Positions 12,301-52,681 of a stretch of 64,000 bases of DNA are shown piece by piece (position 1 is the first letter of the stretch; every line of letters starts with the position of its first letter). The DNA comes from Climacium dendroides (lineage: Eukaryota; Streptophyta; Bryopsida; Hypnales; Climaciaceae). Location: the NCBI GenBank assembly GCA_950106755.1, contig OX467089.1, positions 1,676,501-1,740,500 of the forward strand. The letters are read 5' to 3'. Made by a program: the position numbers and the translations under genes. The notes under the pieces are model-generated. The model had not been told where the DNA came from. It did not search any database and worked only from the letters and a program-made list of their open reading frames with translations.

Positions 12301-13905
12301 TTTTTTACCCACCCATGGTAAATTAGCGTTGCACAACCAAATTCTTAGTATTGTTTTGTAAGTTTTGTCCTAAGGGTGCCTAGCGTCAATCCATTGTGCC
12401 TTCCAAGCAATGGATCTTTTCTAACTCTTACATGTGAAAAATAAACAAAACAACAAGAAATTCTAAATAACTATAAGTTTTACCCTTTTATCTCAACTAA
12501 CTAAGCCAATGTGGTTTTTTATTCAAAATGAATTCAGTCTAGATTTATCATTTTTAAGTGATAGAACATGTTATGCCATTTCTAAAAATATAAAACTCGT
12601 CCTCATCCGAGCTTTCTAACAATAGTTATGGAAGGATGAAGTTTGACCGCTAATTGGTTCATCAAACTTCATCCATTGATTTCTACTAATCTACCTTATA
12701 ATTTTACTTGAGATTTGACTTTTGGTCTCTGAACTCTATTTACTATTTGACTTTCTAATATGGTTGACTTTGGATGATTTATCTAACTTTCATTCATTTT
12801 GACCCCTAAACTTCATCCGTCTCTATCTTTCTCATTTTTCGTTGGATTTCTAAGTGTGAGACATTTTTGGAAACCTCTAAACTAAAGTATCACAATCTGA
12901 ATCTAAAACTTGGATAAAATCTAGTTTTAATATTCTGACTTGAAAGGTTTGTTCGGCTAAGGTATTTAAAACCATCTACTTTGCAATTTGATAGTAATTT
13001 GAGTATTTAGAATCTTACCTCACTTTGTGAGTCATCTTGGACGTTGTAGATGAGTCTTTCAGGATCTCCATTTTCCTCCATGGTTTCGTTGCTCGGTAAT
13101 TTATGCTCACCGCTTGAAAGTAGACTTTTAATACAAATTTGCAACTATTCTAGCTACTATTCCTCCTTTCTTATATTTCGGATTTTATACTATACTTTTC
13201 TAATGGTTGGCTTAGAAAACTCTTGACCTCTTAACCACTACTTTTCCATTTTTTGCTTGCCTAATGACACCTTGCGATATTTCACATGGTCCACCCTTCG
13301 TGTCTCAATCCTATTGGTTGTTCTAGATACTTGAGATTTCTCTTTCTTCAACTTCAACTATAACAATCTAACAATTTGGTTTTCAATTCACAACTATCAT
13401 TCCTATTGAGTTTTTGAACTCAAATTTAGTCTAAGCTAGAAGAGTTGAAAGAGTGGTGAGATAGAACTTTGTTTTGCATTCTTCCTTGCTAATCACACCT
13501 CCCTAATCTATCCTTCTTCCCTTCTAATCTATTTTCTAATTTCCTTATCAAATGCCTTAGCTCTCGGTCTGACTTTTGACAACTTACTGTTTTTAGACTT
13601 CTAATATGTTTTCCTTGTAGAGGCTAAAACTAGCTTTCTAAGTTGATGTGGAACTTGCAAATCGGACTTTTCTAGTAGAGGTTATGCATGGATGAAGTTT
13701 TGAGTCCTAATTAGTGTTTGAAACTTCATCCGCTTATATCTTACTCATTTTAGCTTGAATTTCTTTGTATTTTATGTTTCTGGAAAGCTCTTGACCTCTA
13801 CTATGAGATTTTGAACTTCAATTTGTACTGACCCTTCTTCTTAGCGGCCTGACTACACCCTTGATCTCGGCCCTAAAGAAAGACTAATATTAAAAATGAC
13901 AACTT
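12301..13905. mobile_element. Insertion X, left part (unclassified)
   Basis: The repeat TGAGCAC at 12294-12300 recurs at 33087-33093, where the R1 gag frame resumes. The DNA between is therefore one insertion, later split by Element I. This part is AT-rich with no convincing ORF. It contains GATGAAGTTT-type motifs in inverted pairs (about 12630-12675 and 13690-13730). The left end starts with six T residues, as a minus-strand poly-A tail would. The class is unknown. Confidence 0.45.
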
Positions 13906-13932
13906 AAGGCCATATTCATTAAATTGAGACAA
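13906..13932 (+). repeat. Left terminal inverted repeat of Element I
   Basis: AAGGCCATATTCATTAAA followed by TTGAGACAA. A second, internal copy of its inner part is at 13981-13998. The target duplication ACTT precedes it at 13902-13905. Confidence 0.9.
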
Positions 13933-14687
13933 TGTGGATTCTCATTTTAATCATCTTCCTAAATTTAGTGAATAGAAGAGTTCATTAAATTGAGACAATT
14001 CAATAAATCGAGACTATAAAATGCTGGAAGTATAAAGAATTTCTACAAGTTTATGAAATTGGGGGAAAAAAATAGTAGTGAAGGACGTTGAAAAGAGGGA
14101 TTTTGGACTTGAACTTGAACCATTTATAATAAGTACTAAACTAAAATATCTAAGTAAATAGTTTGACATATGGTGAGGTAGAGAATTTTGAAATAATCCA
14201 TGATAGAATACATCTGTACACCTAGCCTTACCAAAAACTACATCGTCAAAGTAAAGAATTAAACATATGCTTAGATAGAGAACTTTGTATAGAAAACATT
14301 AGTACTCCTAGTGTTCCAAAACAAATGTCATAGACAATGAAATTACAATGAAGAATTTACAAAATACACAATACAATACAAGAAATAAAAATAAAAATAT
14401 ATTATATTATAGAACATCTATAACATCAAATTCTAAAATAATATAAAAAAGATCAAAACAATGAACTAAAAGAATAAAAAAAATAAATCTATTTCATCTT
14501 CTCCATCTATTTTTTTCTAACAATTATTTATTATTTTTTTTTGAGACATATCTAAAATAACTATCAACTTCTACAACTCTTTATAATCTTTTTTTCCATT
14601 TTTTTTTCATCCTTCCTAAAGTTAAGAAAATAACCTACAAACTCACAGAACTCCTAATGACTTTCTATGCCTACAAACTATTCATCT

Positions 14688-17600
14688 TCACTCCGAAGAT
14701 ACATTATTGCTTTCGCCAGATACGTATGCATCCACTGATGACTGGATGATAGCAATTTGTGTTTTGGGAATTCTAACTCTTGGATCAGAAGTGCCTTCTT
14801 TGAAACGAGGCTTCCAAGCAGTCATAATGTAGTCTGTATGTGTCCAACTCGGAGAGATAGCCTTATCCTCGCACCAAGAATTCCCTTGTTTTGTGTCCCA
14901 CCCAACATATGTTTCTTCATTGGTGTGATGAAAAGACGTAGGTGTCCAATATTGAAGTTGAATAGAATTGACATGCCCTGGATCTGGATTAGGATTTGAT
15001 AGAGCCCGAGCAAGCCAAAATGGACGGAGGTCACCGTCAGCGGGTCGCACAGCAACTAAGTAACCTGCATATACATCGCGGCCAACACGAAATGAAGGAG
15101 GTGGACGATCACGCCTGCGACCAACAAAAGGTTCATCTTCTGCAAACTCCTCACACATTGTGCCATCATCTAGGTATTGGTCTTCCACCTCATCGGTAAT
15201 TCGAGAATTTGGCCAAAATCCATCCCGCAATGTCTCATGCACCACAAGTGGAGCATTGAGAGCACTTCTCACACCCTCCCAATATTTCCGCACCGGCTCA
15301 TTCTTCCTCCTAAACTCACCAGATAAGTCTTGATTTCCCATTGCCCCCCACAATGCAATGTATCCATCTAAACCCTTGCAAATCTCATCAAAGCAACGCA
15401 TTTGTTGGGGTGCCAAAGGTAAAGGACTACCCCTTGGGACTTTAGGGTGCCCCTCTATTGTCTCCTTCCACAAGCGAATTCCCCCACCCTCTCTCAGCAA
15501 CCAATCAACATCAGTACATAGTATTTTGTACTGCATCAATGGCCACCCATTGGAATCTTTATAGAATTTGAACTGTTGCGCTTGAGAATGACCCTGTAGA
15601 GAATCATCGCCTGTATGTAAATACCTGTCTACAAATCGCTTAAAATCAGGAACCTTCTCGATGAGATGAGGAATCACGGGTTGTCACTATAAGAAAACCT
15701 TGTTTTAGGTGACATTCAAAAAAACAGCCGACGTCAAAGGAAACGAATTTTAGGTGACGTTGAAAAAAAAAACCCTGTATTTTTCATGTCAATAATGATG
15801 TCCAATGGAACATTAATGGAGATAATTGTTGACAGAAAAACATAGGTTGTTTTCTTCAACGTCACCTAAAATCCGTTCCCTTAGACATCGAAAATTTTGG
15901 TTTCTTCTAGTGTGTGTTTCGCAATCCATGAAAAACTTCATCAACCTTGGAAGTGTAGGGTAGTCATTCGTCTTCAATTTGGTGCTCCAACGACCAAATA
16001 GAGCATCAATGTCTTCATGAGTGTGTCCAACAATGAGGAAATTGATGTATATTTCTCGAAAAATAGCTCTATAGACAAGGAGAGAACAGAATGCAAAAAC
16101 CCACCGATTCTTGTTGTCGCCAGAAGCATTGTCAAGCTGAAGAGTCAATGTTGGAGGAAGAGGTTGAGCTTCCACCAACACTTCAGGGGGGGACCCGAGG
16201 GAGTCCATACAAATCTCTGAGCCTATTAACAAAGCCTCTGTCAATTTAGAACACTCTCTTCCTACAAACAATTGACGAGATGAATGCTTCGGTTGTGACT
16301 CTAGATCTCGCAATAATTTTACAATGGACCCAATAGTATGGTTGGAGTTTGTTGGGAAGATGTCCAATCCATAGTGCGCATATCGCACATCTCCATGACC
16401 ATGAGCAATCATGCCTGTAACAGCGACAGGCATCTTCATGAAAGAATCATTCCCCTTACTCTTGTGAGAGTAATGAGGGGAAGCAGTCTTGAAATGATCC
16501 ATCTTGTCATGGATTATAGTGAGAACCTTGTCAGGATACATCTCAGACATTGAGCGGTTTCCATAATACAAGTCCCTATGCGCCTTCTGTCCTGATAGAT
16601 GCACTCTCAATTTGTTTGACTACACGTCTTGTGCTCGTGAACGTGGAGTGCAAGCACTCTTGAGTTGCCTATATCTATCGCAAGTTCCACAACGAGCAAA
16701 ACTATCTCCTCTAGCCTTGGGAGCATACTCTGAAAAAGATTGACGATGTATGTTACTCAATCCACTAGCCGAAATACGATGCAATTGAAGTGAAGAATTG
16801 ACATTGTTGATCTGTGGCAACTTGTCCTTCCATCGAAATGCAGACGGTAGAACCATGGAGGGGACTTTCTCCCCGGACTCAAGGGTCCTCGATTTGTGGG
16901 GCATTGAATCCGCTTCATTCTCCACTAATAATCGAAGAGTTGCTGTGGCTTGCAAAGTGTGTGTCCGAGGCTTTTTCATTCCAAGGTTGCCATGATGCTC
17001 CGGTTTTTGGTCATCTTTTGCCATCTTCTTGTATCTATAAAAGGTAGCCTTTGATACTCCATGGATGGCGCACCAAGCCATCGAACAAATTTCATGGTTT
17101 GCCAAGGTGATCATGTCCCTTCCATTGGAATCACTGTGGGTTTGCTTGTGCACGTCAAGGAGACGTGACTTGCGCCAGAACACTCCACCGTCAATATGAA
17201 GTAGAGACCGAATGGCTTGAATCTGCCCACGTGGAAATGGTTGCAAGCAATTCTTCTGGCAACACTTCATACTAGAAACATCAGCAATTGCTTGCTCAGT
17301 GAGGAGAGCTTCTTTCTTCGGGAGATTGGTAGGCTCAATCCTCTCACGTGAGCTTTCATATGAACGAACTCCAGTCCGAACACGACGCCTTGAACCGCTT
17401 GAAGAAACTGCAGTATTGAAGAGATGCGTTTGCTCGTGATCATATAAGCTGGCACCATTAAGGAAGACTCGTGAAATGTGCCAGGAGTGCATGGACCACA
17501 TCCACTCCGATGGAACATCTTCCTCGCACAGAGACTCTGCAATTTGTATTGCAACGCGGTCATCACCGAGTGGCTCTCCGTCCATATCAATGACGAGATC

Positions 17601-17768
17601 AGCATCAACATTATGACAAATTCCTTTTACCACCTCTATCCCTTCTTCATTTCTGAGTGTGACGCATTTGGTATACCAAGAAGCTCGAGGAAATCCCTCG
17701 CAAGCTGCGACACCCGGTGGCAAAGTTGGCACTGGAACTGTAAACTCGTTGGCATCTGAAGTATCCAT
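14688..17768 (-). pseudogene. DUF7869/DDE-like transposase candidate, Element I copy
   Basis: The gene starts at ATG 17768 ('MDTSDANEF'). The N-terminal domain 'CVTLRNEEGIEVVKGICH...LGDDRVAI' resembles domains attached to plant CACTA-type transposases. Next come a Cys pair 'CCQKNCLQPFPR', an HTH-like 'VSKATFYRYKKM' and a second Cys pair 'FARCGTCDRYRQL'. The core has candidate catalytic acids in 'IIHDKMDHFK', 'QLDNASGDNKN' and 'VGHTHEDIDALFGRWS'. The C-terminal region 'GYLVAVRPADGD...WLARAL' may be an SH3/BAH-like barrel. TAG at 16620 and a CACTA insertion (15685-15912) break this copy. The family assignment is from remembered resemblance and needs a profile search. It is divergent from the cassette at 23617. 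Confidence 0.65.
15685..15912. mobile_element. Non-autonomous CACTA-type element in the transposase gene
   Basis: The ends CACTATAAGAAAACC and GGTTTCTTCTAGTG form the CACTA signature and are flanked by TGT on both sides (15682-15684, 15913-15915). Long internal arms (TTTTAGGTGAC / GTCACCTAAAA) make it hairpin-like. Removing it together with one TGT restores the reading frame between 'FMDCET' and 'IPHLIEKVPDF', as in the other copies, so it inserted into an existing gene. Confidence 0.88.
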
Positions 17769-17810
17769 TCTGCGCGTGAGAGAATACCAATTAAGTAATA
17801 CTATTGTGAA

Positions 17811-17829
17811 TATCCTCGAGTCGAGGATA
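17811..17829. promoter_or_regulatory. Element I palindrome upstream of the transposase gene
   Basis: TATCCTCG-AGT-CGAGGATA is a perfect palindrome about 45 bp upstream of the ATG at 17768. Confidence 0.75.
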
Positions 17830-18150
17830 ATAAAAAAGTAGGACTCATTGACAAATCCAGGAACAAAGCGAACTCCACTGGAGGGTAAAATTGTAAACAA
17901 TTTTGTGATCATGTATAACAATCCATCCACGAAGACGAAAGTAGTGAAAATGTAAAGAATTTAAAAAACAGATCCAGAAAACAGATTTTAATTACTTCAT
18001 CTTACAAATACTCTTGAGAGATATTATGCATTCCCACACACGACATTACAGTGTTACACTGATTATGTATATGAACTCTGTATATCATCACAAATGTCAA
18101 TGAATGTCTATGGTTATAATTGACATTCCATGTATGTATGTGGTGGACAT

Positions 18151-18422
18151 TATCTTCGGCTTGAGGATAACCTCCATGCATGATGGAGATTATCCTCAAG
18201 CCGAGGATAACCTCCATGTACGTTGGAGATTATCCTCGGCTCAAGGATAATCTCCATGCATGTTGGAGATTATCCTCGAGCCGAGGATAATCTACATGCA
18301 TGGAGGTTATCCTCGGCTCGAGGATAACCTACATGCATGGAGGCCATCGATCCAACAATCATGTTCTATGCATGATTGTGATTATATTTGCATGGTCGTG
18401 ATTATCCTCGAGCCGAGGATAA
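18151..18422. repeat. Tandem 40-bp array of Element I palindromes
   Basis: Palindromes begin at about 18151, 18191, 18231, 18271 and 18307 (40-bp steps, the last slightly shorter), and another stands at 18402. Each has TTATCCTCG / CGAGGATAA arms around three variable bases. The linkers repeat CCTCCATGCATG-type sequence, itself partly palindromic. The array lies 380-650 bp upstream of the transposase-like gene on its 5' side. Element II has a 57-bp array in the same relative place. Confidence 0.9.
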
Positions 18423-18429
18423 CCTCCAT

Positions 18430-22335: not shown

Positions 22336-22339
22336 ACTC

Positions 22340-22665: not shown

Positions 22666-22669
22666 TCTT

Positions 22670-23616
22670 TTTTTTTATTTCCTGTAAGTAACATTCAATC
22701 TGTGAAATGCAAGTTGTGAGCTTTGTGTATGCAGTTTATGTTCTTGTTCTTGTTCTTTGTGTTCATGAATTCATAGCTTGTTTCAATTTCCATGCAAGTG
22801 TTAGCGCCATACGTTCTCGAATCTGGGTTTGAAATTTCTGTTCATTTGTTTTGGATTAGGGTTTCTGTAGAGAATCCAGTACATCTAAAATTTTTAGTGG
22901 CATTCAATAATCAGTGCTCTTGGTTTGAATGCATGATATCATTTTTGTTTGTATGCATGTTCTAATTGAATCTACACTGTATTCTATATTTGTATTCTAC
23001 ATGTGCATAGGTGATTAGTATTACAAATAGGGTTTATGTCTTAATGTTCTCCAGTTCTTATGCTGTGAACAACAAAAATCATCTTTGTGCGAAGACAATC
23101 ATCTTCAGGTCGAAGATAACCTAGAGGCTATTAATGCAAAGAAACCCCAGAACTAATGAAATACATAAATTGACAAATAACTATTATCCTCGTTCCGAGG
23201 ATAAATAGCAACGAACTCAACACACATTCAATATAACTAAATGAAATAAGAACAAGTTTATCCTCGGGCCGAGGATAAATAGCAACTAAAAATCACGCAT
23301 TCAATATAACTAAATGAAATAAAGACCAGCAAATTAGAACAATGAACTATATCCTCGACTCGAGGATAAAATCAACCGAACAAAATAGAAATCCAATATA
23401 GTTTAATTAAAAGAAGAGATCGTTTTGTACTATCCTCGGGACGAAGATACTGAATTGTAGATATCATTTACGAATAAAATGTGTATATTTTGCACTACTC
23501 TGGATATGACGTGTTGCCTACATTGATAATGGTTCACTCGAATTGCAATAGGCAACAATTCTCTATTCCATTATCTTCGACTCGAAGATAAATATGAAAT
23601 TCCAATTCTCATCATA
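22670..23616 (+). promoter_or_regulatory. Upstream region of the Element I cassette with palindrome cluster
   Basis: Six or more palindromes stand at 23101 (degenerate), 23184-23204, 23258-23278, 23350-23368, 23431-23449 and 23571-23591. The last is perfect (TTATCTTCG-ACT-CGAAGATAA) and ends 25 bp before the ATG at 23617. Two segments with 'ATTCAATATAACTAAATGAA' between palindromes are duplicated. This is the likely 5' regulatory region of the cassette, inferred from position. Confidence 0.6.
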
Positions 23617-25082
23617 ATGGTTTACTATGCAGAGATCCATATCAACATGGTTGATGAGTCTGAATATGACTACTCAGCTACTCTCCCGTTCCTTGAGCCG
23701 TTCACCAAATGGGTGGAAGAGGAGCCCTTCATATCTGAGATGCCAGAGCTCTACGGCAAGCTCTGGCAATTCAAAGCCGTCGTTGAGTCATGGACTTTCG
23801 GTGTCAACGAGTCCAAGAACTACGTCTACCTGCGTCATCGAGTGCAGGACACTGGCATGTACGTGAACTGGAACTTCAATGAGAAGATCGCACTCATAGA
23901 GAATCATCAAGACAAGTACATTGTCATCACTTTGCAAGGCCTCGACAATGCAGGGAACGAAACTAAACATACCCATTCAATCGTCTGCCATGAAGACGAC
24001 CCTATGGGAGTTTTTGACTTCGACAACCTCATCGTTGACTTGCACTCCGCAAACCTCGATGGCTTGGCATCAGACTTTCATACAAGATACCATCCATGGA
24101 TTAGAAGGAACGCCAGGGTGACGGCGAGGAAAGTTGGATACATGTTTCATAAGCTGACAGAGCAAGCTCAGAAACATGTTCAAAAAGGTCCTGCTCGGGC
24201 GAGTCAAGGTCGTGGTCAGCAAAGGCCGGATACTGCCGCTGAGACCAGGTCAGCGTCTAGTATGCGCGGCCGCACAGGGAGCAGAGGAAGTGGGAGAGGA
24301 ACGGCCCGCGCACAAGCCCGAAAGAGAAATAACCCGGACACGAGTACCGGTGAGACAAGCGACAAACGCAGGAAATCCATCCTGGATAGTCGCCCTACCA
24401 CTGCGGGTAGTTCAGGGTTAATACTAACAAACGTGAATACTCGGAAGCCAGCCGGTAAGCAACCAATCGAAAAACACGAGGTTGCTGTTGCATACCAATC
24501 GGATTTCTGGAAGAAAAATGGCAAGTGCTTCATTTTTCATCCACAGGTATTCACTATTAATATCAAGCAATGCTTCCTGGCCAAAGAAAGATACATTATC
24601 CGGAAGCTTGAAATGAAATTGGTGGATGAGCAAAAAGAGACCCTCATTCATCTTGGTTCAAAGTAGCAAAGACAGAAAATTTGCTTGACCCCCATGGGCG
24701 CCGATAAGAAGCTTTTGAAGGAGTGTCCTAAAGATTGGGATTCCATCAAGGACGGAGGCTTCTACATTATTGATGGCCAACATAGTGTCACTACAGCCAA
24801 GCTCCTTCAACAAGGAGGTTGTTGCGAGACTCGTAAGGACGAGCTGCAGACGTGGTAGGCTGTGATTGTCTGGTCTAGAGACCCAGCACAGCTGACAGAT
24901 ATTTCGAAGTGGTACAATGCCTCTAATCACCTCGTTCACAATCAGCCAACATGGGGAAATCAAATATCCGCATGTAGGCAGGTCTGGAAAGCACTCAAGC
25001 GGCCTACCAATATAGACAGTGAGGGGCTAGTGAGAGGGAATAAAGCCATCTACAACGTCTCAGCGTATAAGGTACCCCTCAT

Positions 25083-25211
25083 TTATCTTCGAGGCGAAGA
25101 TAAAATTCATGTCCATATTGTAGTTGCCTTCATGCATCCTTATGGATGCACTGCCGTTTCTAACAATTTATTATGTGGTCTCTGTAAGGGTTATCCTCGG
25201 GCCGAGGATAA
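25083..25211. promoter_or_regulatory. Two palindromes inside intron 1 of the Element I cassette gene
   Basis: TTATCTTCG-AGG-CGAAGATAA (25083-25103) and TTATCCTCG-GGC-CGAGGATAA (25191-25211) are both perfect. Both lie inside the putative intron 25072-25283. The Element II gene has palindromes in the matching intron (43128 and 42970). Confidence 0.85.
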
Positions 25212-26627
25212 TTGTATGATAATCTGTAAATCTTCTGAGTGCACTGAGATGCATGCTGATATCATGTATATCCGTTTGAGTAGGAATTTGTGGACGCTGT
25301 TATGATTCGGTATAGCAACATCAACCCGGACAAGGAGGGCGCTCAAGTCAAATTGGCGTCCGATGTGAAAAACGAAATTCGCATAATAACCTTGGCCGAT
25401 GAGACCTATCTGATGTGGGAGGAGTTCCTCACGAAGCACATTGATGGATCGCTGATTGATCCCGTGACAAGGAAATCCTACAATAGCGCGAAGACCTTCA
25501 ACGCAAAGAACTTCTCGCTCAAAAGAGAGTTCTTCAAGCACATGGGACACTTCACGGACAAGGATCTGAAAGATTATGTCCTCCATCTGCTGGGGAGAAC
25601 AGATAGGCGCACACGAGACTACCCAAAGGTCTCAGTGGGGGCGTCAAAGATCCTGTGCGAGGACAACTATAAAGCCGAGCACTGGGTAGAGCGCAGGAAG
25701 CGTAAGAAGGTCATCGTCGAGGAGTTCATGGCCCTAGATAAGTCCTTGAAATTCAAGGACAGAAATGGGGATGTCATCGATGTGGTGTGGAGGCAATGGA
25801 AGCTTGACAACTTCTTCTCCTTGGCATCGTGGGATTTCCTCTTCACCGCAACACCCAACCAATTCTTCGTAAAATGCCTTACCAATGAGGCAAAGAAGAA
25901 GACAGCCATAGACTACAAGGACAATCCGAGATTGTCGATGGTCTATCCCATGTTCAAGATTTTCTTGAAGATGAAAAAGCGAGTGGAGCCATCGGGAGAT
26001 GTGTTTATCCGAGGCCACCAATGCTATCCCCAGGCTCTTGTGACGACCCACATATGGCCCTACGTCAATAGAGAACTTGGCCTCGCTGTGATTGATTTCC
26101 GAATCCTCCCAAGGCCGAATCCGGGATCCGGTGACAATCCACCGTGCTTGCCGTTATTGAATTTCCTGGATGATCACCTAAGGCCAGTGTTGTCTACCCC
26201 AGACGTCTGGTTATGGATTGTGGGGAATTCATATGACATGGACGCGGCAAAGAAATTTGCGGCGTCGAAGATGTCAGGGTACGAAGTGAGGGTGTCCACC
26301 TACCTGCCAAGTAAGGCTGAGAGGTTGGACAACTTGACCAACCGAGCGGTGCCACCCCCCGTGAAGCTCCTGTTTGTCATGAAGAAACGCAGTGACGGGG
26401 AGACAAAATACAAGGAAGCAGTGAAGAAAGTATACTCCACCGATGACATACCTTACTACACTGATTTCCATAAGAACACGGAGGCAAAATATAGGGTCCA
26501 TCCGAGTGAGCTAAGGATGGAGTTCTATATTGACATTCTCCAGAGTTTTGTCGTGACGGGAGAGAATGTCATCGGCGTTTACACAAGATCGAAGTTCCTG
26601 ATTGCTACTAAGGTGCGGCTCTTTCAT

Positions 26628-26741
26628 TTATCTTCGGGTCGAAGATAAATTCCTATGATCGCTTTCTGGTGTATTATCATGTTTGATTGTTTTGTTGCAT
26701 GCATCTTTATCTGTTGTTGTGTTATCCTCGGGTCGAAGATA
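26628..26741. promoter_or_regulatory. Two palindromes inside intron 2 of the Element I cassette gene
   Basis: TTATCTTCG-GGT-CGAAGATAA (26628-26648) and TTATCCTCG-GGT-CGAAGATAG (26722-26742) lie in the putative intron 26613-26804. The matching intron of the Element II gene also holds several palindromes (41341-41525). Confidence 0.82.
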
Positions 26742-26860
26742 GTTCTCTAGGATGGATCAATATATTTCAAAATAAAGTATTAACAATTGCTTGTTGTATT
26801 GTAGATGTATGGCCTCTATTATTATGGCCTAACTGAGAGGCATGCATCGCAAAAACTTCG

Positions 26861-26931: not shown

Positions 26932-27659
26932 TCCAGGTTACGTGCATCCGCGTAACCTTGAAACTCCTGACCTGGACTCGGATTCCACACCCTCGATCGT
27001 GACGTGGAAGCCCCACGAGAATTTTCTACTGACGAGGGGGCTGCCGACCTTGGGATCGATGAATTCGGGACAAACACGAATGTTGTCCAAGGAGGAAATG
27101 TGGAAACCACCGCGGAGGACTTCCACGTAAGGAACCGCGGGCCCGAATCTGCATCGAAGGAGAACGAAGAGGCAGATGCAGTCACTCGCAAGAAGAAGAA
27201 GAAGGCAAGGAAGCCCGTGGAGGGCTTCATACCGGACATCATCATCAGCGACGTGGAGGACACATATTCGGATTTGGAGGACTTCAACTATGATGGTCCA
27301 CATGCGGATGGCTCGGGAACCTCTAGGGGAACCCAAGAGGTTGTAGAGCCACAACCTCCTCGTGATTCCACGTCCGGAGATGCTGCAGATCCCGGTCAGG
27401 TTCCGCTTCGTCCTGTGAAGGAGGAACTGAAGGATTTTTGGAGGCAGAGAGATGAGAGGAAGGCCTTCAAGAAGGCAGAGGAGCTGGCGGAGAAGGAGGC
27501 ATTGAAGAAGGAACTTGAGAAATTGTGTGAGGAGAATGTTTCTCTCAGAACGCGATCACAGGACCCTTCTGCCTCTCAACCTAGTCAACTTGATGTACCT
27601 GACGTTGGTGGTGCTTCAGAAGCAACGGATCATGTGCCAACTGATCCCATTGGTAAGGA

Positions 27660-27860
27660 TTATCCTCGAGGCGAAGATGATTCTCTACCTCCGGCCCAAG
27701 AGGATACCGCTCCCTCTTCTCCTCCTCCAATGGAACAAGACCAGGGGTCCTCTCTTCCAATTGATAGACCAGATCAACTGATCCAAGAAGAGATTGCTCC
27801 CCCTGGAACTGGGACAGAGGAAGCTGATAGTGCTGTGGATTATCCTCGAGGCGAGGATAA
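27660..27860. repeat. Palindromes within the coding tail of the cassette protein
   Basis: TTATCCTCG-AGG-CGAAGATGA (27660-27680) and TTATCCTCG-AGG-CGAGGATAA (27840-27860) lie in the open frame. Each encodes 'DYPRGED', so the DNA motif appears as a protein repeat. Confidence 0.88.
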
Positions 27861-28059
27861 TTTGAGCCAACCCCCTGCATTGGAGGCACAAGCGGAGTCC
27901 GTCCCGGAGACGCAAGAACAGGCTGACATTACTCCAGATCTCATCTCCCGTCCTGTTGAGCCGCCAGTACCGGAGATGGAGATAGAGCTGGAGAATCCAC
28001 CAGACGACGATGAAGAGACTGTCGACTACGGGGATTATTTGGAAGATGAGTTTGGCTAG

Positions 28060-28667: not shown

Positions 28668-29422
28668 CAGAAGTGGTTGAATATCGTGTTCGATTTGAAC
28701 GGAGTACTGTGTGAGAGCCAGGGTCAAGGGCCCTATAAGAAGAAAAACCATTACACAGTCCGAGATAATATATTCTCCGATCGAACCCCCACACTCATTG
28801 GGACGAAGGCCGTCTTCGTTCGTCCCAATGTGCGTAAGTTCTTAGACGAGGTTTCAAAAATTTCGAATCGCGTCGTAGTTTGGAGCTCGATGTTCAAGAA
28901 GACGGTGGAGCCCGTTGCAAGTTTCCTCTTCCAAAATTGCAAGGCTCCTTTCCACATCCTAGGTCAGGACAACTGCAGGAGGGTAGAAACCTCCGACAGA
29001 AACTTCTTCATCAAGCTGGGAGTCCGTGGAAGACTCTTCTCTTGAAAGTGCTTGATGAGGAATTGTTCCTGGACCCTCATGATGTCGACTCCTTCAACAA
29101 GGACAATACTATTCTCATTGATGATTCTCCGCAAAACGGCGTCCTCAATGAGACCGGGAATTGCATATACTTTGAGAGTTGGAACCCGTACATGCGTGGA
29201 GACAAAGTGCTCTTGGGCACTCTCATTCCGTGGCTGAAGAAACTACACGAGGATTGTCCACTCGAACGCCTCCGTGAGTTCGTAGATCAGAACCGGATAG
29301 GTGTGGCACCCTTGTCTACATTCGACGATAGTGCCGAATATATATTGGAAGGGATGAGGAAGTCCGCCAAGGCATTTCAGTCTCGATTCGTGTTGCGGGG
29401 GATGAATTTAGTGATTGAATAA
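28668..29422 (+). pseudogene. FCP1/SCP-like HAD phosphatase homologue, Element I copy
   Basis: The protein begins around 'KWLNIVFDLNGVLC', the HAD motif I of FCP1/SCP CTD phosphatases, where DxDx(T/V) here reads D-L-N-G-V. It continues with 'AVFVRPNVRKFLDE', 'VVVWSSMFKKTVEP' (motif II Ser) and 'ILIDDSPQNGVLNE' (acidic motif DD). It then has 'IYFESWNP' and a helical C-terminus ending at 29422. A single-base shift near 29020-29040 separates the two halves, so this copy is broken. Plants have FCP1-like proteins with the DLNG variant. Loss of the second Asp suggests weak or no phosphatase activity. It is the second gene of the cassette, and its homologue is at 38825-40003. Confidence 0.75.
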
Positions 29423-29616: not shown

Positions 29617-29674
29617 TTATCTTTGGGTCGAGGATAATTGTGGAGGATGTGTGTTATCTTTGAGTCGAGGATAA
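29617..29674. promoter_or_regulatory. Two palindromes between cassette genes B and C, Element I
   Basis: TTATCTTTG-GGT-CGAGGATAA (29617-29637) and TTATCTTTG-AGT-CGAGGATAA (29654-29674) lie in a 37-bp duplicated unit ending GGAGGATGTGTGTT. They are imperfect by one or two arm positions. Confidence 0.8.
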
Positions 29675-29763
29675 TTGTGGAGGATGTGTGTTCACATCCA
29701 TTACTATAGGTCGGAGGATCCTTTTTACACCTTCTCCAACGGACAGAACCACTGACGAGGAGC

Positions 29764-30672
29764 TTGTTGTCTGGATCGGACGTGCCACTTTCAATGAGGT
29801 CCGGCTCGATTGGAGGGAGCTTCGTGCTGTCCTCCTATTCAAAGCCTTACCTCTTGGGCTCGGCCACTGATGCAGCTTCGGCAGCCATCGACTTCTCGAA
29901 GGGGAATGTGGAGGAAGGCGTGGTAGATAGCCCACCTAGTCGGGGTCCTGTGAGGACACCGATTTGCTCACCGTCGCCGATGAAGAGGGCCAGCTCCACC
30001 CCAAGTCGATTGCGTTCACAGTCGCCGACTTTGCGAACGCCAAACACCCCGCACAAGAAATTGTATGAGGATGACGAAAAGACGGGTATGGATCCTCGTC
30101 TCGAGGATGGACTGCTGTTGCCGGTGACAATCGCACATCAGGCTGTCCAGAGCAAGGAGCTCAATATAGATCCCAGGGATGGGGATCGGATCAATGAAAT
30201 ACCGTTGGGTGCATGCAGTGCACAGCAGGTTCGACGCCTCGTAGATATTCCCATCTCGTTCCCCTCAAAATTTGTAGGCAGAGTATCTTTGCCTTCCGCA
30301 GTACCTATTTCCCGCCGAACGACTCTTCGAGACCTACGGCGGTCAAATTACACATGATTGACAACAACTGCCGATCCGTACATAAGCACTGTAAATAGAT
30401 CGATACCACGGCCGCCTCCTCGAGGTTCTAGGTCTCTTTCCAATACCGAGATTCCGCGACATGAACGAAAGCGGAAGAGAGAGGCCAAGGATTTAATGAT
30501 GATGGGGATGTTCAATACATTGAGTAAAGACAGTGGATCACCCAAGCCTTCTCGACGCGAGGATATCTTCAGAGGATTGGCTAAGTTGAAAGCCTTGGAT
30601 GCAGCCAAGGAGGCAACAAATAGCTGTTCTTCATCCAAGAACGATGGTTTGCCCAGTGATCCTCGTTGTTAG
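29764..30672 (+). pseudogene. SP/TP-rich disordered protein (cassette gene C), Element I copy
   Basis: One frame runs 29764-30672 with an internal TGA at 30355. The true start is unclear and an upstream exon is possible. The protein is rich in Ser/Thr-Pro: 'GVVDSPPSRGPVRTP', 'CSPSPMKRASSTPSR', 'SPTLRTPNTPHKK'. Its C-terminus is basic with 'RHERKRKREAKDL'. The palindrome at 30091-30110 is read as 'DPRLEDG'. The box 'GVVDSPP...CSPSPMK' is shared with 38020-38421 of Element II, which fixes the homology. I recognise no domain. SP/TP-rich tails are typical phosphorylated substrates. Its place next to an FCP1-like gene suggests, as inference only, a partnership. Confidence 0.6.
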
Positions 30673-31097
30673 TCATCTTTCCTTTATGGAAGGATCATTA
30701 CTATTAATAGAATAGTCATTCATATACAAAAAACGATTTTTAGCGAAGCCAAGTGCTCTCTCTGGTCATATCTTCTACATTTTTACACAAGACATTCAAT
30801 CATTAGACTTAGCAAGATTAGATATACCGGGATTTCATTTCCTAGGAAGTGAAGTATATAGAGAAGTGAGAGAAGTTGATTCAAGTAAATTCATGTTCTT
30901 CAATATAAAGGGACCCGCTTCTATAAATATTACATCTTATTACACAACTCATGTGGAATTGCATTTTGCACAAACACGTTTCTGAATTACTTTGGTGTTA
31001 AATTGCTTTAAGCCTTCAAATGATTTGCCTATTTCTTTCTTAGCCTTCAACAATTTATCTTTGAATGGAGGAGCCTTAAGTTCTCAAAATGACCATT

Positions 31098-31124
31098 TTG
31101 TCTCAATTTAATGAATATGGCCTT
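31098..31124 (-). repeat. Right terminal inverted repeat of Element I
   Basis: TTGTCTCAATTTAATGAA followed by TATGGCCTT is the reverse complement of 13906-13932. The target duplication ACTT follows at 31125-31128. Confidence 0.9.
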
Positions 31125-31128
31125 ACTT

Positions 31129-38019: not shown

Positions 38020-38421
38020 TCATCTTCGGACTATGGTTGTGCTTGCTTGTAATTCATGAGCTTGGAAAGCCCTCCTACTTCCTTGAACATCTGAAGAAGG
38101 ACCCACGTCCTCACCATATAGTTTCTGTTGTGTTGCTCTATCGCAAGGTGAGGACGACATCGGTGTAGCAAAAACATCACTAGACTTCATGGGCGATGGA
38201 GAACATGATTTTGGACGATGTGGAGCTGAACCCGGGGGACTATCCACCACCCCATCATCAACGGGCTTTAGGGAGAAGTCCATTGTCGAATTTGCAGTGG
38301 CAACCGAACACATGAAGTTTCTTGTACTCAGAATTAGATTCTGCCCGTAGTCAGAGAAAGAGTCAGCTGATGCAGTGCACGGAAGACTGGTGTGCTGAAC
38401 TAGAGAGGATGACGTTCCCAA
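38020..38421 (-). pseudogene. SP-rich disordered protein (cassette gene C), Element II copy
   Basis: No ATG opens this frame. A possible acceptor (TTCTTAG) lies just upstream, so it is probably a 3' exon. The box 'DDGVVDSPPGSAPHRPKSCSPSPMK' matches the Element I gene C and a Ser-rich N-terminal stretch precedes it. It ends at 38020, much shorter than the Element I frame, so it may be truncated. It is the last gene of the minus-strand cassette. Confidence 0.55.
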
Positions 38422-38824
38422 ATTCTAAGAAAACAAAGAGATTAGAATAATTTAATCAAAAACTGTAACTGTCATTACATTTACAAGTAAACTCCAATAA
38501 CAAATTTGCAGTCTAGGAAGTCCTGGCCATCGAATGAGGTCGACCCGACCTAAACTAGAGGAAGAAGAAAATACAGAAAGGTATTCATAAAAAAATTATA
38601 TTACAGAAATTACGTATATCTCTAACCATACATGCGAATGCATGAGCCATTAAGGTCGAGGCGAGCTGAAGTTCACTAGGAACTCAGAGAACAATCCACA
38701 TGCCATTCAGCACGACTCGACCTAAATTAAAGCAATAAATAAACTATCCTCTCGTAACGCCGATTAGACGATGACACAGTCACTGCATCCACATGGCTCA
38801 TGAACAGCAATGAAATGAAGTGCG
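38422..38824. other. Intergenic region between cassette genes B and C, Element II
   Basis: No gene is seen. It holds three Element II palindromes, at about 38535-38553 (AGGTCG-ACC-CGACCT), 38651-38670 (degenerate) and 38706-38726. The same interval of Element I holds two. Confidence 0.65.
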
Positions 38825-40003
38825 CTATCGGTACGCTGAAGACACTCTGACTGCATCCATAAGACTATTGTACATGCCACGATTTCTCTCGTCATACAGC
38901 ATCTTCCGCCCAATTTTCCCCGCACTACTCTTGCGAAATGATTTCAATCCTTCATCTCGAGCTTTGTGAAGTCGCCTGAGCCAGGGCAAAAGGACCATGT
39001 CCAAATATGAGTCCCTAGGGCCGTTACCCTTGGGAGACCAACTGATGGGGAGAACGACGTTCTCCGACTTGTTCATGAAGTGCTTCATAGGACTATCGTC
39101 AACTATGACAGTATTCTCTCGAAGAAATTACCCATTGAAATTATTAAACAAGGTGTTCGCGTCCTTCACGAACAGGTCCTTGGTGGTGCCTGGCTCCTTG
39201 AATGTGACTATCCGGCCTTGTTCCTCACACTTGAGCGTTGTGCAAGACTCCTGCCCAAGTATAATGCGAGGCTTATCCAGACCGACAAAAAGATAATCGA
39301 TGATTTTTTGAACGGTAAACTTCTTCATCGAGCTCCAAATAGAAACGTGTGCTATCAATCCTAGCTCACGAAGGAAATGAGCGCAATTTGGGCGGACAAA
39401 GACCGCCTTCGGTCCCACAATCGCAGGAATTGTGGCGGAGTGCGGTTGGTCTGCATTCTCGACGTGCACAGCCCACCCCTTGTACTTGGCGTCTTCATGG
39501 ACACACAAGACTCCATTCAAATTCAGGACAACATTCAGCCACTTCTCGGCGACGGTCACCCTGGACGTCAATGGAATCTCAACATCCTTCGACGTATCTC
39601 CACGTTCAGATGGGGGAACCGATCCCTGCTATCAAACGGACAAATGTGCAGCCAGTTACTAAGCAACACTGACACATTTCGAAACTCAAGGAAAAAGGCA
39701 AAATCCAATTGTCACAGACTATATATGAACACAGAGGTACCTATTAGCGCAGAGATCAAGGACGCAAGGGCACGAGGTTACCTTTTCCGGCAAAGACAAC
39801 GTCGGTCCAACAGGGTCTGGCATTTCAATCTCCAGAAGCTGAGCGTCGGGAATAGAGACGTCATCATCTAAGTGCATGGACTCAGATTCCGGTGCACCTC
39901 CACTTGTAGCTTCTATAATGCCACAACCAAATGTTGGACATTGTACATGCTGTATAGGAGCAATAGATTTCGGAAGATCATTCAGTCCAGTTGAGATAGC
40001 CAT
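38825..40003 (-). pseudogene. FCP1/SCP-like HAD phosphatase homologue, Element II copy
   Basis: A likely first exon is 40003-39777, followed by an intron (GTAACC ... CAG) and a main exon from about 39627. Motif I is 'VVLNLNGVLC', so both catalytic Asp positions read Asn. 'AVFVRPNCAHFLRE', 'VSIWSSMKKFTVQ' and, after an in-frame TAA at 39128, 'TVIVDDSPMKHFM' follow. The C-terminus 'YLDMVLLPWLRRLHKA' matches 'LLGTLIPWLKKLHED' of Element I. The fold is that of FCP1-like HAD proteins. With motif I lost it should be catalytically dead. Between the two elements the active-site loop differs while the scaffold is kept. Confidence 0.72.
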
Positions 40004-40260: not shown

Positions 40261-43200
40261 TCAACCTGATGGTGCATCCTGGCCATCCAATGCATGACTC
40301 TGATCATCATCAATGGCGATGGCAGGATCCGTGGGCATCTTCGGGCTAGACTCCAAGGTCTCTCAGGACCTGCCACCATCAAGTGGAACTCGAGCCATGT
40401 CCTCGTCATCAGGTGGAGGTGCAGGGGTGGAGGGGCACTCCTCAGTAGGAGGAGGAGCTGGAGGATCTGCGGAACTTGCAAGAGAAGTGAAAGAGACAAA
40501 AGGCACCCCAGTCAATCGTGGAGTGGAGGGTAAGCTTGAGGATCCACTCATCGTTGGTCTTGTTGGCGCTCCCTACAGCAAAAGCACTTGGTCAACCTGA
40601 GACGGCTGTACGGATGCTAGAGGCATGGCACCACCAAGACTGTTGATAATGGCCTCCAGTTTGGAGTCGTTCTTTTGTGACATTGCCACCATAAACTATC
40701 GCAACTCCGCCATCTCCCTGGCCTGCCTATCAAACATCATTTGATCCAGTTCCCGCCTCCTCTTCAGCTCTGCAATTTCTGCATCATAGTCGGCGGCGGC
40801 TTGTGATCTTCCCCTCTTCCGCTTCTCCTTGGAGGCTGGAGACGGCATGGCAGAGGTGTCAGGTGGTTGACCCGACGACGCTGATGATCCCCGGATGCTT
40901 TGAGAGCGGATCACTGGAGGGGTGCTCCGATCCATGGGAACGTCATCGTCGTAGTCGTCATCACCGACTGCCCCATCGCTGTCGGAGGACTCACACAATA
41001 TGATTGCAGATGACCTCTGACCGGACGGCGTGCTTGCCTCTCCAGTTGACTTCCCCTTGCGCTTTGATGACGAAGGCGTGCTTGACCCCGATGGTCGGCG
41101 TGGGAATTTGCCCTCATCAACAAAGTATCCCTCTGGAAGAAAGTCGTTCTTATCTAGTTTCTTCGCAGTGGTTGCAATTTCAGTCCACTAGTCAGACTCC
41201 TCCGAGTCCCCCACAACAAACACATTAATCCCACTCATCTACAAAGTCACACACAACGTCACATACTATCAGATTACGATAGTATGAAAATTCCCTAACA
41301 AGGATACAATGGTATTTCATGTAACGTCAGCAGTAGGTTGGGTCAAGTCGACCCGACCTGAAGTTCACTCTCGGGCACTCAATGGCACCGATCAAGTCGA
41401 GCCAAACTATGGAGGAACACACTCCAGTCAATGCTACGAGTCAGGTCGACCTGACCTGGTTTCTATCACCTTATAATTTCAAGAAGAAATACATGTCCAT
41501 TTTATTCAGGTCGAATCGACCTTAACCATAGCCAAAACATTACATTGTGGAATTCATTGTGTTCAGGCTTACCATCGCAGCACACGTGAACTTCGACCCA
41601 ACGAAGAATGACATTACGCTTGCTCCAGGAGCGCAGAATTTCCTCACAAGATTGAGGAAGAACTCCATCCGTAGCTCAGTATTATTAATCTTGAACTCTA
41701 GCTCTTTGTAAGCCCCGGGCCTCGTAAATGTTTCAGTATTGGGAGCATCATAGGAAGACCTCATTTTCACCGTCCTAGCATTGCTTGGGCTTTGCAGGAT
41801 GGTCAGGTAAATTGGTTCCACCGCCTTCTTGCTTCGTGCAGACAAGTCACCGATACGCTCATTGGGTGAGGGAATGTAGTTAGAGAAACTCATGGAGTAC
41901 TCCTTCAACGCGGGATTGTTGTCTATGAAGTGAAGTGCTTGCGTTTGCTTGGTGAGGTCGGAACAAATGAGCACCCACACCGGAATGTCCTCGAGAAGGG
42001 GCTGGCCCTTTTCTTGGAAGGACTCGACAACTGCAGTGAAGTATGGATCGGCTGGCGTACACTTAGACTTTGACACCACATTCGGGGTCTAACGCAGGTC
42101 CCACACTCCAAGCTTGATGTCCTTTACGTTCTCTGCAGTGAGCACGCCTCTAGGCCAATCCTGGTGCGTCTTATACATAACGTCATATGGACGATAGTAT
42201 GCAGTGGATTTTGGGGGCACAAAATTGTTTCTCTGCTGCAGGAAGACCCGGAAGAACTCAGCCGCGTACATTGACATCTCCTCAGCGCTCTTCCCCTTTG
42301 CTCTTGACTGCTTCGCCTCCATCCAGTATTCGTTCCCTGGTTGCTCTAGCAGCACGTTCATTGTGGCACTTGTGAAGTTCCGACTTCGTTTGAACTCCCT
42401 CCACTTCTCGTGGTTCAGCTTGTTCAAAGAGGACATGAGCCTGAGACTTGCGTCTAGGGCGTGAAGCTCCATCTTCACCTTGTGCTTGCGCTTCCTTCTC
42501 TCCACCCACTCCCTAGCAGTGTAGCAGCTCTCCTGTACAACAGAGAGAAGCTTGATTGTGACTTTCGGGTAGTCCTTGTTCTTGCTCCCTGGATTCTGAT
42601 GCAGAATATGTTCGGCCAACTTCGACAAGTCATTGAAGGAAAGGTTTCCGAGCACTTTGAAGAACTCATGCGTCAGATTCCCTTGCTCGGGCTTCCAAGT
42701 GGCCTTCTCGTTGTACTTCAATCTAGTATTGGGGTCTATCAACTCTCCATGCACAGCACTAGAAATGACCTCGCTCCACAGGTTGTACACGTCGTCCGGA
42801 GCTGTGATTATCTTCAGCTCGTTTCGGATCTCGAGCTTCTCCTTGGCGTCCTTGCCTTTTGCAGCCTTCTGGGCCTTTAGTACATCTAGCAGACCAAACC
42901 GCTTGTACATTGCCGATGAGAATTCTTGCAACGCAATTTTGTATGTCACAGTCAATTTGGAGCTCTCTATTCAGCTCAGACCGACCTAAACTACACATTT
43001 CATTTTGAACGTCAAATGCACCTTTGTCGTTCTGCTTACTTCAAACTCTTCATTCATTATCACGTGAAGTAAATCAATACATCACCTATGCTGGCTGGAA
43101 CACTAGGTGGCAGACGACATTCTCAGATCAGGTCGACTCGACCTGAATCTCTTACCATGAATTTCTTCTTATTTGCTGTACTCTCAACGTTTCGCTTGAC

Positions 43201-44610
43201 GTTGGACATTGTCGCTATTAGGGCCGCTTCCCTCGGATTGCGTGGCCTCCCCATGAGTTCCTACACTTTTCTGGCTCCCAGAATGTTTGTTGACCATGAG
43301 GGCTTCTGCGCCACGAAGTGGTTGACCCTATTGTAGTACGCCGATTTATCCCGTAGTTTCTGGGCATCTGTGGACCAGACCACGTAGCAATCCCATTGAC
43401 GAAAGTTCTTGACAATCTCTTCGTCAAGGTTTTGGTCCACCATCATTTTGCTGGCAGTCACATTGTGTTGCCCATTGATGATGTAGAAGTTTTTCCTTTC
43501 AAGTGCTGGCCAGTCCTTCGGCTTTGGCTTCTCGAAGCAATCCACTGGCATGACACACAATGTTTGTTTTGTGGACTTATCTGGCATTTCCCAGAGGTAT
43601 GTCATCATATCCTCCGCGAGCTTCATTTCATGGCTACGAATGTTTAAGTCCTCTAGGGCTTTGATGAGTTGCTCAATGGAAATTGTCTTCTTATCCTCCA
43701 GGCCAAAGATGTAGGCGTCTGTGCAGTGCTTCCAGTAGGCCTTGTATGCCTCCACGGACGCAATGTAATCATGCGATTTCTTGGCATCATAAGGGACCGG
43801 GACCTCAGTTACCGCGGATACAAAACTCAACTCCCCTGGTAAAACTGCACTAGGGTTTTGCGCTGCTGTTGCCGCTGTTGAGGTTGATGCAAATTTACTT
43901 TTCCTGGGAGCTCGTGCTGGAGTAGCGGCCTGCATGGACTTTCTTGTCCCCCGACTCTGTTGGGTTCCAAGTGTACCCATTGAGCTCTGTCCCTCCACGT
44001 TACTTGGAAACTCCTGGGAGACAGTTCTGACAATCATGTCTTTCTTCTTCAACTCAAGTTTCGTCTTCAGAATTGTGAAGTCGTTCAGGAGTGTCTTCAG
44101 GCAAGAGTATAGGGCCTTCCCCGTTGCCAACTTCCCATCCTTTGTCTTGAAGTAGTTGTGGTCAACTTTCTTCTCAAGGTCGGGAATCTCCGTTCTGTAC
44201 TCAGTCGGTTCCAGCGTTGACAAGAAGTGCGATATGTTGAAGGCACATCTTGAGGAGTCCAAGCGAATAGTGAAGTGGTACTGCTCGCTTTTGGGTGTAC
44301 TAGTCACAGCTGTAACACACCGAATTTTCAAGAATGGACCACTGTCGTGGGCAACGTCCTTTATCTTCTCATCAAAGGATATGCTGAAGAAATGGTCCGT
44401 GTCTTTAAATTTTGCAGCGAAGCAAATGAGGTTCTTGAATGGAATCATGTGGAGACTCCAACTCTCAACCTTTTCGGGATTTTTGAATTCCCAGTAGTCT
44501 CCGTCATTGTCAAAGTCGTCCCCTTCCTCCCTAGAGGATTCGTGTACACAGCGTACGTAGAAGGCCTCCAGCTTCTCAGTTTGGTCATCCATTCTGCATT
44601 CATTTTCCAA
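40261..44610 (-). pseudogene. ParB/DGQHR-like plus methyltransferase-like protein, Element II copy
   Basis: The start is ATG 44592 or an earlier codon near 44610. Exon 1 runs to about 43156 with a ParB-type box 'FYIINGQHNVTASKMM' and 'CYVVWSTDAQKLRD...YNRVNHFVAQ'. Exon 2 (about 42966-41583) has 'WVERRKRKHKVKM', then 'VWVLICSDLTKQ' and 'ELRMEFFLNLVRKF...SVMSFFVGSKFTCAAM'. Exon 3 starts near 41240 with 'INVFVVGDSEESD', fitting the strand after methyltransferase motif I, and ends in a coiled-coil and Pro-rich tail. TAGs at 43261, 42089, 41188, 40696 and 40573 and a TGA at 40363 interrupt. The TAG at 43261 aligns with Trp of the Element I copy. The introns hold palindromes. Confidence 0.62.
41341..41525. 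promoter_or_regulatory. Palindrome group in an intron of the Element II cassette gene
   Basis: Partial or full palindromes stand at 41341 (AAGTCG-ACC-CGACCT), 41441 and 41505-41525 (TTCAGGTCG-AAT-CGACCTTAA). All are within the putative intron between the methyltransferase-like exons. The other intron of this gene has 43128-43146 (perfect) and 42970-42990. Confidence 0.75.
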
Positions 44611-44648: not shown

Positions 44649-45731
44649 TTCAGATCGACCCGACCTAAATGCCAGTACATGGAGCTTCTACATTTCATCT
44701 TCTATGTGTTTGATCTACTTGGACTCGGTTCGTTTTGCTTCATACGCTTCAGGTCGACTCGACCTGAAGTTCTAGTCGGAATATGCAAATATTTCTGCTA
44801 TTGTGATAGCCTCAATGTTATTGATTAATGTTATCGGATCGTCCTAGTACGTATTGTTCTCACTTTGAAACTGGCAATTCAGGTCGGTCCGACCTGAATT
44901 GCATGCGGTAGTGTTGTCATGTTTGTTGTTGGTAAATGGATGTTTATTAGAAATGTGTCTTTTGGTCAATTTGTTAATTATACTAGGTGTCTAATATAGT
45001 CATATAAATATGTATGTTGGTGAAGGGAATACGTATTTGCTGTGCCAAATTGCAGAGGGTCTTCCTTGCAGTTCAAATCGGACCGACCTGATCTGCATTT
45101 AATTTTGACGATCATGTTATTTCTCCTCTGGGATGTTAGTGACAATGTCTGCTACTCAGTTGCTTCCCTTGTACAGACAATGCTAGTAGGTGTACATTTC
45201 AGGTCGGACAGACCTGAAATGCATGTTCATCTCATGTCAACATTGTCCATGAAATAGCACGGACAAATGGAGAGATTTGGGAGAGGATATGATTTATGGG
45301 GCTCTGCAATTCAGATCGCATCGACCTGAATTGTAGTGTGGGTCATGTGACGTACATTACCGGTATGTTAATGAATTCATTTATTAGTCAACTTGTTTAC
45401 AAATAGGTGTCTAATATCGTGATAGTAATTTATTTGTTGGTCTTACAAATTATTTGACACGTCAGATTGCAGAGGGTCTTCCTTGCAGTTCAGGTCGGAC
45501 CGACCTGATCTGCATTCAATTTGGACAACTTTGTTATTTCTCTTCTGATATGTTAGTGCAATTCCCTTCCATTTAGTTGCCTTCTTTGTACAGAAAATGC
45601 TAGTAGGTGTACATTTCAGGCCGGACCGACCTGAAATGCAGGTTAATCTCATTTGAAAATTTTCAAGGAACTTGCCCGGACCTAGGATATGTGTTTGAAG
45701 GGATATGCAATTCAGGTCGATGCGACCTGAA
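44649..45731 (-). promoter_or_regulatory. Upstream palindrome cluster of the Element II cassette
   Basis: Nine palindromes begin at 44649, 44748 (perfect), 44878 (perfect), 45072, 45198, 45310, 45489, 45615 and 45711. All are TTCAGGTCG-N3-CGACCTGAA or close to it. A block of about 430 bp is duplicated (45040-45330 against 45460-45735), multiplying the sites. The cluster occupies the 5' flank of the cassette gene (start near 44600), like 23101-23591 in Element I. Confidence 0.88.
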
Positions 45732-52270: not shown

Positions 52271-52276
52271 GTGCAC

Positions 52277-52582
52277 TTCAGGTCGAGTCGACCTGAATGT
52301 GAGATTGTCTACATTAGTCATTCGTTCATGCAATTCAGGTTGAGTCGACCTGAATGTGAGATTGTCTACATTAGTCATTCGTTCATGCAATTCAGGTCGA
52401 GTCGACCTGAATGTGAGATTGTCTACATTAGTCATTCGTTCATGCAATTCAGGTCGAGTCGACCTGAATGTGAGGTTCTCTACATTAGTCATTCGTTCAT
52501 GCAACTCAGGTTGAGTCGACCTGAATGTGAGATTGTCTACATTAGTCATTCGTTCATGCAATTCGGGTTGAGTCGACTTGAA
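52277..52582. repeat. Tandem 57-bp array of Element II palindromes
   Basis: Six palindromes begin at 52277, 52334, 52391, 52448, 52505 and 52562, exactly 57 bp apart. The linkers are near-identical (TGTGAGATTGTCTACATTAG, then TCATTCGTTCATGCAA). The first, third and fourth are perfect TTCAGGTCG-AGT-CGACCTGAA. Because 57 is divisible by three, open frames run through both strands without being genes. The array lies about 750-1050 bp upstream of the transposase-like gene. Confidence 0.93.
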
Positions 52583-52681
52583 CTGACCCATATGATAGTA
52601 ATTGAAGTAATGTAAAACGTATCCTAGGTAGATTGAATAGTTCTGTCATCGAATATCATTTATGAAATGGTATACATGGCA

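Follow-up and report, generated by a model that had tools for sequence, protein, structure and literature searches.

Two giant DNA transposons and their genes

The 64-kb window, by which we mean the whole stretch of DNA that was analyzed, lies in contig C38 of a 412.6-Mb genome made up of 123 contigs. It contains two giant DNA transposons, Elements I and II, each combining a gene for a DUF7869 protein, the presumed transposase (T), with a divergently oriented cassette of genes A to E. The transposase of Element I is on the minus strand and its cassette, A-B-C-D-E, is on the plus strand, and Element II has the mirror order. The following features were annotated.

Element I
13905..13937, plus strand: left terminal inverted repeat, from a repeat search (33 nt, 94%), with a possible 4-bp target duplication, ACTT
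14688..17930, minus strand: DUF7869 presumed transposase in three open stretches (PF25273, E 1.5e-40, middle stretch)
23617..25030, plus strand: gene A in two open pieces, end approximate; blastp matches to Element II A at 20% and 42%; ParB-like by homology
25284..26648, plus strand: gene B, methyltransferase-like fold
26971..28059, plus strand: gene C, a charged protein, with palindrome sites 27660 and 27840 inside the frame
28668..29422, plus strand: gene D, NIF/HAD phosphatase-like, in two frames (PF03031, E 1.7e-9)
29710..30672, plus strand: gene E, with degenerate palindrome sites 30090 and 30546 inside
31093..31125, minus strand: right terminal inverted repeat, from the repeat search, the 33-bp partner of 13905..13937

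Element II
38020..38424, minus strand: gene E, by blastp to Element I E
38825..39628, minus strand: gene D, NIF-like (PF03031, E 1e-6)
40696..41187, minus strand: probable gene C, by position, without a blastp match to Element I C
41540..42970, minus strand: gene B in two open pieces, blastp 28-30% to Element I B
43261..44592, minus strand: gene A, with a predicted ParB-like fold in the C-terminal part
53329..56210, plus strand: DUF7869 presumed transposase in several open stretches (PF25273, E 3.3e-8 and 2e-25 for two of them)

A CACTA-like insertion splits the Element I transposase (14688..17930). The outer ends of Element II are less clear, with broken inverted repeats that pair 36212-37564 with 55635-57067. 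Compared by blastp, the proteins of the two elements are 20 and 42% (A), 28-30% (B), 38-40% (D), and 37% (E) identical, and the C genes correspond by position only. Since the DUF7869 proteins are 45-68% identical and the cassette proteins less so, the cassette evolves faster than the transposase.

Several other features were observed in and around the two elements. Related short insertions with CACTATAAGAAA-type ends, resembling non-autonomous CACTA elements, are found at 15690-15920, interrupting the Element I transposase, and at 35270-35475, upstream of a Ty3-type gag-like frame (33072-34025) that lies between the elements. Telomere-like TTTAGGG/CCCTAAA repeats occur in the T/A intergenic region of both elements (19339-19375, 45883-46060, and 51183-51292), and a third DUF7869 gene remnant, at 57009-59035, is 58-83% identical to the gene product of Element II and 35-60% to that of Element I. 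A second Element II-type copy, C38:1818307-1831648, about 100 kb from the window, is 99% identical in gene A and 100% in a transposase piece and is a very recent or local duplication. In cassette protein D (28668-29422 and 38825-39628), the first phosphatase motif reads DLNGVL or NLNGVL, which departs from the form of the motif in active NIF/HAD phosphatases.

Palindromes specific to each element

Element I carries motif I, TTATCCTCG-N3-CGAGGATAA, and Element II carries motif II, TTCAGGTCG-N3-CGACCTGAA. Searched across the whole window with up to 3 mismatches, motif I gave 20 matches, at 17810-29674, and motif II gave 28, at 38534-53257. At the same threshold, motif I was matched in 0 of 100 shuffled windows (mean, 0.00) and motif II had a mean of 0.02 matches and a maximum of 1. 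Up to 5 mismatches yielded 25 sites in Element I and 31 in Element II; a first-pass annotation of this DNA had estimated about 22 and 30 copies. Seven sites in each element are perfect. That annotation had also described each motif as missing from the other element; indeed, there were no such matches at up to 4 mismatches in either direction, and neither motif was found at up to 3 mismatches in the rest of the 64-kb window outside its own element. The interval that it had singled out, 18151..18422, does hold a cluster of motif I sites (18150, 18190, 18230, 18270, 18307, and 18402), mostly in 40-bp tandem repeats, and its start is off by one base. Tandem repeats with units of 40, 57, or 37 bp hold part of the sites overall. 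The principal sites, listed without strand, are as follows.

17810..17830: one motif I site, inside the transposase open frame at its 5' end
18150..18422: six motif I sites upstream of the transposase, most of this cluster lying in the 40-bp tandem repeat
23099..23591: clustered motif I sites upstream of gene A (23184, 23258, 23349, 23430, and 23571, and a decayed one at 23099)
25083..25211: A/B gap, motif I at 25083 and 25191
26628..26742: B/C gap, motif I at 26628 and 26722
29617..29674: D/E gap, motif I at 29617 and 29654
38534..38726: E/D gap, motif II at 38534, 38650, and 38706
41342..41525: C/B gap, motif II at 41342 and 41505, with a weak overlapping pair at 41435 and 41440
42970..43147: B/A gap, motif II at 42970 and 43127
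44649..45731: nine clustered motif II sites upstream of gene A
52222..53257: twelve clustered motif II sites upstream of the transposase, the cluster being in part a 57-bp tandem repeat

Placement was scored at up to 5 mismatches. The T/A intergenic region, counting both flanks, holds 12 sites in Element I and 21 in Element II, the A/B gap holds 2 in each, the B/C gap holds 2 and 4 (two of the 4 being overlapping and weak), and the D/E gap holds 2 and 3. The same noncoding places are used in both elements. At this threshold no sites were found in the coding parts of A, B, and D or in the C/D gap of either element. Genes C and E of Element I together hold four sites, and Element II has one in its gene C. 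Three more are in the Element I transposase frame, and two of these (14682 and 14863) are weak and may be chance matches. At sites 27660 and 27840, inside the gene C frame, the palindrome region itself encodes a repeated peptide, YPRGED.

Palindrome families across the genome

Genome-wide counting, with controls, gave 680 exact motif I sites and 1330 exact motif II sites, against 0 and 0 exact matches in 412.6 Mb for the reversed patterns of the two motifs. Searches of the genome for DUF7869 returned at least 150, at least 150, and at least 144 matches, with 1722 to 1866 first-look candidates. Motif II palindromes stand upstream of the transposase in 17 of the 20 Family II copies examined; the other three (L048, L050, and L054) have none there, and two palindromes are present in L034, a locus that spans the transposase end of the copy to which L054 belongs. 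In all eight Family III loci the palindromes are TTATCGTCG-N3-CGATGATAA or variants near it, some of them spaced at about 207 bp, and motif I is present in both of the Family I loci L085 and L086. The arms seen in six further loci, L087-L092, are TTATCGTCG, TTATCCTCG, mixed TTATCNTCG forms, or GTATCGTCG. The common TCG core with differing outer arms, first described for the window, extends to these loci, in which TCG-RNY-CGA is kept and the arms vary.

Specificity over many copies is supported by the 17 Family II copies and by the genomic sites of both motifs, with two partial exceptions. One is L089, which carries TTATCCTCG, the Family I arm. The other concerns Family III, in which transposase-side regions carry TTATCGTCG/TTATCATCG and L074 carries TTATCGTCG. 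By distance, L093 and L074 are taken for the two sides of a single Family III copy, L093 being the cargo side. L093 carries the Family I arm, TTATCCTCG, and would in that case be an exception to strict family specificity.

Cassette-class loci totaling 120,495 bases gave 253 matches to the core, TCGRNYCGA, where a first-order model predicts 5.95 (maximum of 20 runs, 11). This set includes both window elements and L093, which was picked because it has motif I sites; loci of Families II and III entered it on the basis of their transposase only. In a distant DUF7869 clade (about 25% identity), the core was absent from all 12 loci in the roughly 4 kb covered at each, that is, 0 in 49,176 bases against 0.55 expected. 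An equal density of the palindromes in unrelated DNA, the observation named at the outset as the one to look for against them, was not seen as far as tested, either with the reversed patterns or in these 12 loci.

Cassette and transposase are also linked. Among 92 copies of Family II gene A, 58 have a divergent transposase, drawn from the 150 best scored, at a distance of 7-20 kb (median, 11.6 kb), while shifting the gene A positions in 200 random trials gave a mean of 1.5 pairings and a maximum of 6. This indicates that the Family II cassette and transposase travel as one unit. The remaining 34 copies may pair with transposases beyond the best 150 or may be incomplete.

The central three bases had been considered free to vary. 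They are instead constrained, mostly to purine-N-pyrimidine, in 174 of 175 sites at 19 Family II loci, 35 of 35 at three Family I loci, 86 of 101 at eight Family III loci, and 29 of 30 at L087, L088, and L091. The same form is present in all 10 sites of L093 and in 1 of 3 at L092, and within the window it is seen in 28 of 31 motif II sites and 16 of 25 motif I sites. The constrained spacer carries the symmetric part to 10 bases per arm, and the palindrome is better described as 10 bp + 1 + 10 bp.

Divergence of the families and decay of the motifs

Elements I and II had been regarded as sister families, but they are not the closest pair, as Family III is nearer to Element I in both protein and motif. 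The Family III A protein (from L093) is 38-57% identical to Element I A and 25% identical to Element II A, and motif likeness follows the same order, with TTATC[CG]TCG in I and III versus TTCAGGTCG in II. The transposases diverge in that order as well (59-76% identity for I versus III and 43-51% for II versus III), so the binder cannot yet be told from co-variation.

Across 18 upstream regions of Family II, CpG changes of the C-to-T type amounted to 5.1% in the motifs and 5.4% outside, and changes at A and T positions affected 0.6% of cells in the motifs and 1.3% outside. With a CpG decay of 0.051 versus 0.054 outside, no lasting protection from methylation is visible at the motif CpGs of Family II, a pattern in keeping with copies that are methylated and mostly silenced. 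Constraint seems to act on the A and T positions of the motif.

Cassette proteins A and B

Protein A is predicted to contain a ParB N-terminal nucleotide-binding fold, and protein B is predicted to contain a Rossmann-like DNA methyltransferase fold of the N6/N4 type, with altered catalytic motifs. Protein A has 64 homologues; the named ones that indicate a plant, P0013 and P0017 (39% identity), belong to the moss Physcomitrium patens, and the genome is accordingly taken for that of a moss. A and B are adjacent open frames in the window and a single chain in P0013, and both putative domains, ParB and methyltransferase, are encoded by one DNA transposon, divergently from its transposase. A Pfam search of the window proteins A and B gave 0 families at E values up to 0.01, and their homologues gave scattered weak matches only. 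The VANC domains DUF1985 and DUF287 were not among the Pfam families listed at E values up to 1 for A (51 members) or B (62 members).

The ParB nucleotide motif of A reads GQH[SN] in 48 of 51 aligned sequences and D---, GEHS, and DQHS in the other three; the conserved arginine of the GERR-type motif is not kept in these 51 sequences. The canonical catalytic motif of N6/N4 DNA methyltransferases is [DNS]PP[YFW]. In the matching region of B, 56 of 62 aligned sequences have D-x-R-x-x-P, and 0 of 62 have PP[YFW]. The SAM loop of B is GxK in 57 of 62, RSK in the window protein, and gapped in 4. The N-terminal half of B, predicted to be helical, was barely covered by the fold search, and neither A nor B showed a recognizable DNA-binding helix-turn-helix.

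Proposed role of the palindromes

We favor the reading that the palindromes are docking sites of a dimeric protein encoded by the element, most likely A-B, and that self-marking against silencing is the most likely benefit. This reading we place at a probability of about 0.5. The symmetry of the sites points to a dimeric or symmetric binder, and their presence at both main promoters and in most gaps suggests that the element is coated or marked as a whole, not just at one promoter. An element-encoded binder would account for the different arms of the families, and A-B is favored among the element proteins because its fold in bacteria loads at palindromic parS and spreads.

In the proposed mechanism, each transposon family would encode its own dimeric DNA-binding protein, most likely the cassette pair A-B with its ParB-like and methyltransferase-like folds. 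A-B would load at the sites of both main promoters and most gene gaps and, like ParB spreading from parS, would coat the entire element; the coat would mark it as self. The most likely benefit would be that host silencing is escaped or reversed, as with VANC of Arabidopsis VANDAL elements, the nearest alternative being control of the element's own genes. Families would diverge by joint change of protein and palindrome while the symmetric TCG-RNY-CGA frame stays. We infer A-B as the binder, its spreading, and the anti-silencing outcome, the last by analogy with VANC; the family specificity itself is seen in the window and in the copies examined. In its most complete form, the proposal is of parS-like self-labelling in land-plant transposons, in which a ParB-like clamp with a catalytically altered methyltransferase loads at family-specific palindromes and coats the element, protein and site having co-diverged so that each family recognizes only itself; this form is more tentative, possible rather than probable. 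The decay of the motifs without local protection, the altered ParB arginine, the failure of A and B to match a Pfam family at E values up to 0.01 or to show a helix-turn-helix, the divergence of the transposases in step with the motifs, and the apparent exception at L093 all limit the A-B reading.

Other readings were weighed against the same observations. A role as DUF7869 transposase binding sites, needed in transposition or self-repression, is in our view unlikely. Large clusters do stand upstream of the transposase, and the transposases diverge between families in step with the motifs, but the sites lie inside the element, in gene gaps along the cassette, 0 overlap the terminal repeats of Element I, and the distant DUF7869 clade has none at 12 of 12 loci in the roughly 4 kb covered at each. 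Less likely again are host or element transcription-factor sites, that is, ordinary promoter or enhancer elements of the transposon genes; the clusters upstream of T and A would suit them, but a host factor poorly explains a separate arm for each family or sites between and within downstream genes (27660 and 27840). Recognition by an active cassette DNA methyltransferase, leaving a self/non-self modification mark, would be in keeping with the fold predicted for B and with what has been proposed for the ParB-methyltransferase of an Ectocarpus transposon, namely, that it binds and modifies its own element (PMC12477816). The catalytic region of B, with D-x-R-x-x-P in place of PP[YFW], and its variant SAM loop nevertheless make this improbable. 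A neutral by-product of tandem-repeat growth is very improbable, since even with part of the sites in 40-, 57-, or 37-bp repeats or at the ~207-bp spacing of Family III, dispersed single sites stand at homologous gaps, the arms are symmetric, the spacer is constrained, and A/T positions change less within the motifs.

Relation to known systems

The preferred reading, docking of an element-encoded dimeric protein, can be set beside several known systems. To our knowledge, VANDAL/VANC is the one case known in some detail of transposons that keep sister families from cross-activating or cross-silencing each other. VANC is described as binding family-specific noncoding motifs and removing methylation from its own family (PMC5735166). 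As described there, the motifs are often in tandem and vary between related families, and the accessory proteins are encoded by the element. Family-specific noncoding motifs with a partial tandem spread (40-bp and 57-bp arrays and ~207-bp spacing) are likewise present here. However, the VANC21 motif is given as 9 bases arrayed in one orientation (PMC5735166), in contrast to 21-bp palindromes, and the present elements have a DUF7869 transposase and no VANC domains that we found, anti-silencing being a proposal.

Bacterial ParB/parS and Noc/NBS, in the account of PMC7383237, share with our elements multi-copy palindromic sites and related proteins of different site specificity, and the ParB fold is predicted in A. 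The differences are a eukaryotic transposon as host of the genes, an altered nucleotide-binding motif, no recognized helix-turn-helix, and a longer site with a central N. Another close system is the Ectocarpus giant transposon Sola1-1_Ec32, reported to encode a ParB-methyltransferase accessory protein with green and red algal relatives, proteins that were suggested to bind and modify their own element (PMC12477816). It, too, is a giant DNA transposon with the accessory gene on the strand opposite the transposase and with ParB-like and N4/N6 methyltransferase domains (PMC12477816). Unlike what that account describes, our elements have a DUF7869 transposase, separate A and B frames in the window, an altered catalytic motif, and explicit family-specific palindromes. 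The same two folds are joined in phage ParB-N6_N4 methyltransferase fusions, which are phage proteins, and the words transpos-, plant, and moss are absent from the main text of the survey that covers them (PMC12704722). We found no literature on DUF7869 and, among the matches listed, none that ties ParB-methyltransferase proteins to palindromic sites. ParB-methyltransferase proteins in algal transposons are thus already published, in PMC12477816, and what is new relative to that account is the set of palindromes specific to each family.

Several families of this genome share the same frame with different arms, and the two motifs amount to about two thousand exact sites. With so many families, sites, and near-identical copies in a single genome, specificity switching is directly testable. 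If the proposal is true, the palindromes would provide a candidate target sequence for the ParB-methyltransferase accessory proteins of transposons, whose role so far is a proposed one (PMC12477816).
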